Made by a program: the position numbers and the translations under genes | In this document: positions 5,237-6,997 of the stretch, in pieces | Position numbering within the stretch: position 1 is the stretch's first letter | Layout of the letters: every line of letters starts with the position of its first letter | Notes under the pieces: model-generated | The model's database searches: none | Seen by the model: the letters and a program-made list of their open reading frames with translations, nothing else | Told to the model about the DNA's origin: nothing | Source of the DNA: Chloroflexota bacterium | GTDB lineage: Bacteria; Chloroflexota; Anaerolineae; Fen-1058 | DNA: 11,725 bases | Reading direction: 5' to 3' | NCBI GenBank assembly: GCA_016219235.1 | Contig: JACRBO010000019.1 | Coordinates: forward strand, 1-11,725

Positions 5237-6997
5237 ATGTCTCACAGTCGAAAACTTTGGGCGGTCATTTCGCTATTGGCCGTCGTGGCGATGATTAGCG
5301 CGGCTTGCGCGCCGGCGGCGGCCCCTGCGCCAGCGGCGACTCAAGCCCCTGCGCCAGCTAAGCCCACCGATGTCCCCGCGCCGGTCAAGCCGACCGATGT
5401 GCCCAAGCCGACGGATGTGCCCGCTCCGGTTGTGCCGCCCGGCAATCCGTTGCAGTACGAAGCCGTGCGCCAGGCCATTGCCATGGGCATTGACAAGCAG
5501 GCCATCGTCGACAAGTTCTATCCCACCGGTTCCAGCCCCGCCGACTTCTTCACACCGTGCGCGATCCCCGGTGGCTGCGAAGGCGACCCCTGGTACAAGT
5601 ATGACGTCGAAGCGGCCAAGAAGGCGCTGGCCGATGCCGGTTATCCGAACGGCTTCGACATCAAGCTGGCCTATCGCGACGTTGTGCGCGGCTATCTGCC
5701 GCAGGTGAGCAAGGTGGCCGAAGAGATTCAGGCGCAGCTCAAGAAGCTGGGCATCAACGCCACCATCGACGTGCAGGAATCCGGCACGTTCCTCGACAAT
5801 GCCTCCAACGGCAAGCACGAAATCTTCCTGCTGGGCTGGGGCGCGGACTATCCCGATCAGACTAACTTCTTGGACTCGCACTTTGGTGCGGGTGCCAACG
5901 ATTCGTTCGGCAAGAAGTTCGATGACATCACGTCCGTTCTAGCCAAGGCGGCCTCGCTGGCCGATCAGGCCGAGCGTAACAAACTCTACGCTGAAGCGAA
6001 TACGTTGATTAAGAAGCACGTCCCGATGATTCCGGTGGCGCATGGCGGCTCCGCCACCGTGTTCGGCGCTGATGTAACCGGCGCGCATGCCAGCCCGCTG
6101 GGCAATGAGGCCTTCAAGGTTATGGAAGCCCCCGGCAAGGATGTCTTTGTCTGGGTGCAGAATGCCGAACCGCTGAGCCTGTACTGCGCCGACGAGACCG
6201 ATGGCGAAAGCCTGCGCGCGTGCGAGCAGATCTTCGATCCGCTCTTGTCCTATAAGATTGGCAGCACGGAAGTCGAGGCGAATATCGCCGAATTGCCGAC
6301 GGCCAATGCCGATCTAACCGAGTGGACCGTGAAGCTACGCTCGGACGTCAAGTTCTCGGACGGCACGGCGTTGACGGCCAAGGATGTGGTGGCGAGCTAT
6401 GCGGTGCAGTGGGACAAGAATAATGCGCTTCACAAGGGCAACACCGGCAACTTCGACTATTGGACCTATCTGTTCACGGCCTTCCTGGAAGTGCCGCCCG
6501 CGACCGCGACCGATACCAAGTACGAAGCCCCCAACTGCGATTACGGCGGCTTGATGAAGTCGATCGAGGCTGTTGACGACACGACCGTGAAGTTCGCGTT
6601 GTGCGCGCCCGATCCCGCCTTCCCGTCCAAGATCGCCTTTAGCTCGCTGGGTATCCAGTCGGCGGCGCACCTGGCCAAGACCGGCGGCGCCCCGCTGGAA
6701 GACGCGCTGGGTACCGGTGCGTATCTGGTGAAGGAATGGGTCCGCGGCGACAGCCTGACCCTGGAAGCGAATCCCAACTACTGGGGTGAGCCGGCCAAGA
6801 TGAAGACCGTCGTGTTCAAGTGGAACTCTGAAGCGGCGGCGCGCTTGACCAGCCTTAAGTCGGGCGAAGCGACCGGTATCGACAATCCCGATCCGAACGA
6901 CTTCGACTCGATCAAGGGCGATTCGACGCTGACGCTGTATCCGCGTGTGGCGCTGAATGTCTTCTACATCGGCTTGAACAACGACGTCAAGCCTTAA
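5237..6997 (+). CDS. Circularly permuted peptide-binding lipoprotein of an ABC importer (SBP family 5, DppA/OppA-like)
   Basis: A 586-residue receptor that would bind peptides outside the membrane and deliver them to the permeases encoded next. A lipoprotein signal (residues 1-23, ISAAC with Cys24) is followed by a Pro/Thr linker to about residue 66. The core is reordered relative to DppA/OppA. Residues 70-296 are the usual C-terminal half: AVRQAIAMGIDKQAI (76-90), then the pocket loop GWGADYPDQTNF (200-211), where Asp204 lines up with the OppA Asp419 that holds the peptide amino group, then HVPMIPVAHGG (261-271) and SPLGNEAF. After MEAPG (296-300), residues 301-586 are the usual N-terminal half: KDVFVWVQNAEPLSL, DGESLRACEQIFDPLL, VKFSDGTALTAKDVV, GTGAYLVKEWVRGD, ANPNYWG. 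It ends LNVFYIGLNNDVKP, which in DppA runs straight into PLxxxxVRQA. Every block occurs once and the length is normal. The six core cysteines form three close pairs. Ligand class is inferred. Confidence 0.9.
   Translation: MSHSRKLWAVISLLAVVAMISAACAPAAAPAPAATQAPAPAKPTDVPAPVKPTDVPKPTDVPAPVVPPGNPLQYEAVRQAIAMGIDKQAIVDKFYPTGSSPADFFTPCAIPGGCEGDPWYKYDVEAAKKALADAGYPNGFDIKLAYRDVVRGYLPQVSKVAEEIQAQLKKLGINATIDVQESGTFLDNASNGKHEIFLLGWGADYPDQTNFLDSHFGAGANDSFGKKFDDITSVLAKAASLADQAERNKLYAEANTLIKKHVPMIPVAHGGSATVFGADVTGAHASPLGNEAFKVMEAPGKDVFVWVQNAEPLSLYCADETDGESLRACEQIFDPLLSYKIGSTEVEANIAELPTANADLTEWTVKLRSDVKFSDGTALTAKDVVASYAVQWDKNNALHKGNTGNFDYWTYLFTAFLEVPPATATDTKYEAPNCDYGGLMKSIEAVDDTTVKFALCAPDPAFPSKIAFSSLGIQSAAHLAKTGGAPLEDALGTGAYLVKEWVRGDSLTLEANPNYWGEPAKMKTVVFKWNSEAAARLTSLKSGEATGIDNPDPNDFDSIKGDSTLTLYPRVALNVFYIGLNNDVKP
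5360..5431 (+). repeat. Short tandem repeats encoding the lipoprotein linker (KPTDVP units)
   Basis: Three copies of KPTDVP (residues 42-47, 51-56, 57-62), the first and third followed by APV, are encoded in tandem with small codon differences. Such flexible Pro/Thr linkers keep a lipoprotein domain away from the membrane. The repeat could also expand or contract by slippage. Confidence 0.75.

Follow-up and report, generated by a model that had tools for sequence, protein, structure and literature searches.

A circularly permuted DppA-like binding protein of Chloroflexota, likely derived from an already permuted ancestor

A gene in the 11,725-nucleotide stretch of Chloroflexota DNA that we analysed (the window) encodes a full circular permutation of a DppA-like binding protein of the SBP_bac_5 family. 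When the protein is divided into four pieces and its relatives are sorted by piece order, the standard order is N1-N2-C1-C2 and there are three permuted orders: C1-C2-N1-N2 (type A, that of the window protein), N2-C1-C2-N1 (type B) and C2-N1-N2-C1 (type C). One C-to-N1 joint is common to all three. In our view, the ancestor of the window protein had most likely been permuted once already, and a second permutation then gave the present order. On balance, we also lean towards a broader reading, in which the Chloroflexota DppA-like protein would be a closed ring that has been reopened repeatedly (first to type B, then out of B to types A and C, with two other SBP_bac_5 families opened independently at the same lobe-crossing loop) by way of fused tandems, one of which survives. 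The window protein would then be twice permuted, and the point at which its lipid tether pulls would have moved.

The two halves of the protein are in swapped order. Pfam SBP_bac_5 (PF00496) matches the protein in two stretches (263 bits, E 5e-78, against a curated cut-off of 32.4), and the better of these, residues 345-586, corresponds to profile positions 1-212 of 368, that is, the start of the profile is placed C-terminally and its collinear order is lost. When the protein was aligned by phmmer to E. coli DppA (1dpe), residues 70-294 matched chain positions 274-502 (90 bits), whereas residues 331-410 and 439-586 matched positions 31-116 (20 bits) and 123-275 (51 bits), respectively. The new ends are thus at adjoining DppA positions, about 274/275, within one loop, and the old N and C termini are joined. 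Likewise, the best stretch of the NCBIfam DppA model (NF043070), residues 71-295, corresponds to model positions 303-531 of 535. Structure comparison recovered the two-lobed DppA/OppA fold for each half separately, the Foldseek alignments spanning about 250-300 columns, which is one half's worth. The model of the full protein has a pLDDT of 80.5 and a pTM of 0.75, and that of the C half a pLDDT of 75.5 and a pTM of 0.73, with low values in its last 27 residues. The original prediction, made from the DNA letters, had proposed a full-length permutation of a DppA/OppA-type protein with both new ends in one loop, a joint at MEAPG (residues 296-300) and two SBP_bac_5 stretches in swapped order; Pfam, the DppA alignment and the fold of each half bear this out, and the joint and ends are where it had placed them. 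Chance similarity is ruled out by the profile matches and by the permuted homologues described below. The idea that an extra domain had been added to a normal gene was also rejected: Pfam sees just two SBP_bac_5 stretches in the protein, residues 1-70 are leader and linker, and the genes 5' of it are of STAS and RsbW-like type. For permuted proteins of this kind, domain coordinates taken from profiles are misleading.

The features of the gene and its surroundings are collected in Table 1. The open frame and ribosome site that had been predicted are both present. In an alignment of 37 proteins, Cys24, R151 and D204 are invariant (37/37 each), and the tether linker differs in length between relatives. 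We take ISAAC to be lipobox-like from the general pattern of such motifs. The core is under strong purifying selection, with dN/dS of 0.059 and 0.079 against the relatives in L001 and L002, respectively. The promoter scan gave no promoter-like site. A single terminator-like site was found, at 5014-5035, and shuffled sequence gives more; direct DNA repeats at the joints were not informative.

Table 1. Features of the window, in window coordinates
Feature	Position	Strand	Remarks
Shine-Dalgarno-like AGGAGGAGA	5224..5232	+	contains AGGAGG, just 5' of the ATG; read from sequence
Permuted SBP_bac_5 lipoprotein gene	5237..6997	+	586 aa plus stop, single open frame
Signal peptide	5237..5308	+	ends in lipobox-like ISAAC with Cys24; sequence
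Tether linker, P/A/T-rich	5309..5446	+	residues 25-70; sequence
Normally C-terminal half (C1+C2)	5447..6124	+	residues 71-296
R151	5687-5689	+	within C half; aligned to DppA R355
D204	5846-5848	+	within C half; aligned to DppA D408
C-to-N1 joint EAPG	6125..6136	+	residues 297-300; joint position common to all three permuted orders
N1	6137..6487	+	residues 301-417
Putative scar EVPPATATDTK	6488..6520	+	residues 418-428; probably a type-B C-terminal tail followed by a type-B N-terminal head, each once a free end
N2	6521..6994	+	residues 429-586; ends at lobe-crossing loop
Near-perfect intergenic hairpin	7030..7067	+	17-nt arms, 4-nt loop; lies 3' of the SBP gene and 5' of the DppB-type gene
DppB-type permease	7125..8201	+	Pfam and NCBIfam profiles
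DppC-type permease	8240..9193	+	Pfam and NCBIfam profiles
DppD/OppD-type ATPase	9214..10233	+	Pfam and NCBIfam profiles
DppF/OppF-type ATPase	10250..11287	+	Pfam and NCBIfam profiles

Two permease and two ATPase genes (7125-11287) lie beside the binding-protein gene, and the same dppB-C-D-F-type genes follow it in L001 and L002, so that the importer operon is complete, as had been proposed. A DppB or DppC gene was found at 3/3 type-A loci (2 distinct contigs), 9/9 type-C loci (8 distinct), 116/131 type-B loci and 10/11 standard loci. Judging by this operon, by the DppA fold that each half has and by the retention of D204 and R151, which phmmer aligns to DppA D408 and R355 and which we take to be the equivalents of residues that hold the peptide ends, the product is likely a working tethered binding protein, predicted to close on a short peptide. 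The lipid-anchored protein would bind the peptide between its lobes by means of D204 and R151 and pass it on to DppBC-DppDF in the manner of DppA. The kept operon, the DppA-like halves and the low dN/dS also make the earlier expectation of a functional protein a likely one. Presumably the DppA chain crosses between the lobes near the place at which the window protein is cut; in type A, the lipid tether would then leave the protein at the hinge, from what is normally the second lobe, and pull on that lobe, and one of the two lobe-crossing strands would be open. The intergenic region 6998-7124 folds at a z of -6.13. Since a binding protein is usually made in excess over its permease, the hairpin within this region would fit such an excess. 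Upstream, a cassette of STAS, RsbW-like anti-sigma kinase and STAS genes (3865-5023) stands directly 5' of the binding-protein gene, and it is kept in L001 and L002.

The DppA equivalog NF043070 scored 201.3 bits against its cut-off of 1005; this is far from reached, and therefore we do not file the protein as DppA or claim a ligand for it. Another ligand (heme, glutathione or a metal chelate) or a role as a sensor, as is possible for SBP_bac_5 proteins, seems to us doubtful. HbpA and GbpA are among the top PDB matches besides DppA, and some type-B relatives are fused to a kinase or to SBP_bac_3, both of which would suit that reading. Against it, permease genes lie directly 3' in the window and the other type-A loci, and the equivalents of DppA D408 and R355 are retained.

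Permuted orders are the rule among near relatives. Among the best 120 of 5,801 homologues, 17 share the window order and the other 103 are permuted differently, with no standard protein in this set; a further homologue list covered the best 120 of 3,624. The window order was thus recovered in close relatives, as the original prediction had asked, and it also occurs with the same operon in the Thermoflexales assemblies L001 (95% identity) and L002 (86%). The 146 proteins collected comprise 18 of type A (the window protein counted), 127 of type B and 1 fused tandem. A set of 184 loci gave 167 distinct ORFs in which three or more pieces were recognised: 119 of type B, the commonest permuted order, 8 of type C, 3 of type-A order (among which L105/L110 is a member of another family), 2 incomplete, 24 standard and 11 partly matched standard. 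A genome scan confirmed 347 relatives, and the best 80 of these are permuted without exception (70 of type B, 8 of type C and 2 of type A). When a joint probe was applied to 400 sampled Chloroflexota genomes (the phylum of G001), a verified permuted ORF was seen in at least 56 (B in at least 55, A in at least 1), these being lower bounds as loci were read in 67 genomes. The question of how widespread the order is, which had been left open, is thereby answered in part. In 396 genomes of another phylum, around an assembly labelled Acidimicrobiia, 6 had a joint-spanning match at E <1e-30, all of type B and possibly on mis-binned contigs. Among five genomes of the window's taxonomic order, type A is present in G001 and G002 and type B in G002 and G802, so one genome, G002, carries both. 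Five of the 8 type-C records are labelled Anaerolineaceae. A plasmid scan gave 2,733 matching records, every one below 60% identity.

For maximum likelihood trees, the pieces were rearranged into one common order, and the 283 usable rows were thinned to sets of 129 (a quick tree), 57 and 36. These sets leave out L105/L110 and standard ORFs below 250 bits, and their type-B rows were chosen partly for nearness to A and C. In the 57-row tree, type A is one clade (99/98), type C is one clade (100/100) and the standard proteins fall outside (100/100). In all three sets A and C are nested within a paraphyletic B, a position supported at 97/98 and 100/100 in the 57-row tree, and B formed a single clade in 0/200 bootstrap trees of the 57-row set and likewise of the 36-row set. 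Four orders require three order changes on the tree, which is the minimum possible. Type A is a shallow clade adjoining type-B proteins of about 70-80% identity, whereas B reaches the deepest branches of the permuted family. Two deep type-B rows, L100 and L169, shifted beside type C in the 36-row tree relative to the 129-row tree, and deep B placements are therefore unsure. The C-to-N1 joint is present as type B in 127/146 proteins and A is a late clade inside B, so the window order is likely a second permutation. The original prediction had a tandem duplication with trimming, or an ancient exchange, moving the leader onto a permuted core; the permuted core with its leader stands, but the C-to-N1 joint that it took to be made in that event is probably older.

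The alternative that type A is older, the standard gene having been permuted directly to C-N1-N2 and type B cut later from an enlarged N1-N2 loop, is unlikely in our estimation; a single permutation, not two, would then stand behind the window protein. The outgroup is distant, which makes the root the weak point of the trees, and the AU tests do not reject a root on the A stem, with B derived from A: placing A outside B+C lowers lnL by 15.0 (p 0.11), or by 20.1 with the deep B rows included (p 0.245). (Placing C outside B+A lowers it by 39.5, p 0.081.) The number of order changes is also the same under either root. However, the shallowness of A beside its type-B neighbours, the depth of B and the support values for nesting all argue the other way, as does the difference in breadth between B and A in the 400 sampled genomes.

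The linker between N1 and N2 bears on the same choice. In 8 of the 11 nearest standard ORFs the N1-N2 gap is 3-4 residues; it is 15 in L171 and 32-33 in L181 and L182, in which the N1 match ends early. The gap is at least 11 residues in type A and 18-20 in type C, and is followed by YEAPNCDYGG or similar, a stretch that forms the N-terminal head of type-B proteins, directly after the tether. A type-A linker reads, for example, EVPPATATDTK-YEAPNCDYGG, with PATAT in 16/18 type-A proteins and PKTAT in 2/18; NPPPATP is an example of a type-B tail, and TATDTK-YEA is found in some type-B heads. The type-A linker thus looks like a type-B tail fused to a type-B head, as would be expected if A emerged from a tandem of B. 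By itself the match has no direction and works equally for an older type A, since the linker could instead be an old loop insertion at which B was cut if the root lies on the A stem; the direction is supplied by the tree and the breadth of B. The linker also has the make-up of a lipoprotein tether, like a former terminus, which speaks against an older type A.

A fused tandem of the expected kind exists. The metagenomic protein P0122 (1098 aa; 1/146 proteins) reads leader-N2-C1-C2-N1-linker-N2-C1-C2-N1, an in-frame fusion of two type-B units with 24 residues between them, and its middle contains both the A and the C orders. It is a single, unverified protein, encoded on one contig of 4,191 nt, and the two units are near-identical. 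Type-B genes that are separate neighbours were found in L060, L157 and L164. Under a second permutation from type B, we suggest that the standard N1-N2-C gene would first have become N2-C-N1 (type B) early in Chloroflexota, and that a type-B gene was then duplicated in tandem and fused in frame, much as in P0122. The Thermoflexales line would have dropped the first N2 and the last C-N1 to leave signal-C-N1-linker-N2, the type A of the window, and a separate loss would have given type C.

Fission and fusion, with two half genes (split or partial copies) rejoined in reverse and no tandem intermediate, would yield an identical final order, and both models are given in a review (PMC3320104). We think this route improbable, given P0122 and the tandem neighbours. 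Finally, there is a negligible chance that faulty assembly or cloning exchanged the halves of an ordinary gene, since the window order recurs in 17 other proteins among the best 120 homologues, the core is under purifying selection, and an assembly error is refuted by the independent, syntenic assemblies L001 and L002.

Two further SBP_bac_5 families, a and b, have been opened at the same hinge loop. Family a includes a 677-aa ORF in L105 (1297-3330, minus strand), which L110 also holds; in its 19 distinct ORFs the order is C-N in 2 (L110 and L185) and standard in 17. By comparison with PDB chains, the halves of the L105 protein are swapped (residues 72-307 match 1dpp 275-498, and 327-441 match 6ofq 34-154). 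At its joint, the former C-terminal end runs into residues that may be left over from the former tether. L110 shares 55-67% identity with the standard proteins L186-L189, which makes L105/L110 and L185 a good place for studying a young permutation. A single origin for L110 and L185 has an AU p of 0.493 and 26% of bootstrap trees in a set of 14 rows, and 0/200 bootstrap trees in another set of 34 rows. Family b is represented by a 658-aa ORF in L141 (1826-3802, plus strand), in which residues 80-319 match 1xoc 275-503 and 432-619 match 6i3g 55-227, again swapped. It gave 24 one-piece matches of at least 579/658 residues in the same order, in 22/251 genomes; 21/22 classified ORFs are C-N and 1/22 is a distant standard protein, and 10/10 further relatives at 23-34% identity have the standard order. 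L205-L224 belong with L141, a separate and widespread swapped-order family. In some members of all three families, the ends are in the lobe-crossing loop. A three-family tree with standard relatives rejects a common permuted clade for the main family with b (p 8e-59) and for a with b (p 6e-40), the two pairings tested, and the main family and family a each group with their own standard relatives. Therefore, there were at least three origins of permutation in these SBP_bac_5 proteins.

Among the closest known systems is E. coli DppA (1dpp, 1dpe), with SBP_bac_5 at large, which the window protein resembles in both halves, in the fold of each, in the D408/R355 equivalents and in the dppBCDF-type partners; it differs in its swapped halves and in that its lipid anchor is predicted to sit on the half that is normally C-terminal. 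An ABC importer of Treponema has a lipid-tethered binding protein, TpMglB-2 (Tp0684), that is circularly permuted in nature and assigned to 'Type Ic / Cluster Bc'; the authors who described it suggest tethering as a possible reason for permutation (PMC4990184). That protein is sugar-binding and of Type I / cluster B fold, and the portion of the paper at hand describes one permutation, with neither a tandem intermediate nor a second permutation. The Pfam, PDB and fold matches listed for the window protein are SBP_bac_5 or DppA-like. Permutation by duplication, with rearranged orders within a family, is known for DNA methyltransferases and swaposin/saposins, and intermediates are documented for the methyltransferases according to that review (PMC3320104, citing Jeltsch 1999 and Bujnicki 2002). 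The folds in those cases differ from the present one, in which a binding protein of two lobes, predicted to be lipid-anchored, has likely been permuted serially. Among the matches listed from open-licence literature, most subscription journals lying outside it, there was no report of natural permutation in SBP_bac_5, and in the same literature we found no binding-protein family opened at three places and no permutant of a permutant.

Often, natural circular permutation is seen in pairs of distantly related proteins, and the route must then be guessed. Here, a single family in a single phylum includes proteins in standard order and in three permuted ones, as well as a fused tandem and joints that resemble scars. 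Together with the L110 and L186-L189 pairs of the side family, this allows the steps of permutation to be tested with sequence data and simple binding assays. How a binding protein is tethered, and how it is handed to its importer, are further questions on which the case has a bearing. Binding proteins have been artificially permuted for biosensors, and if the natural proteins do work, they supply several start points for comparison.

Several type-B relatives have further features of their own. In P0123 (1039 aa) and P0124 (1113 aa), a Ser/Thr protein kinase domain is fused to a type-B permuted SBP, and each looks like a receptor kinase with the permuted binding domain as its sensor. An SBP_bac_3 (amino-acid binding) domain occurs together with a type-B permuted SBP in P0121, P0126-P0129 and many others, and G002:C1393 has a 1086-aa frame that contains a type-B SBP. 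Long N-terminal extensions are present in L003, L010, L023 and L024. The deeply diverged type-B proteins of L172, L173 and L180 each adjoin a standard-order SBP_bac_5 gene on the opposite strand.
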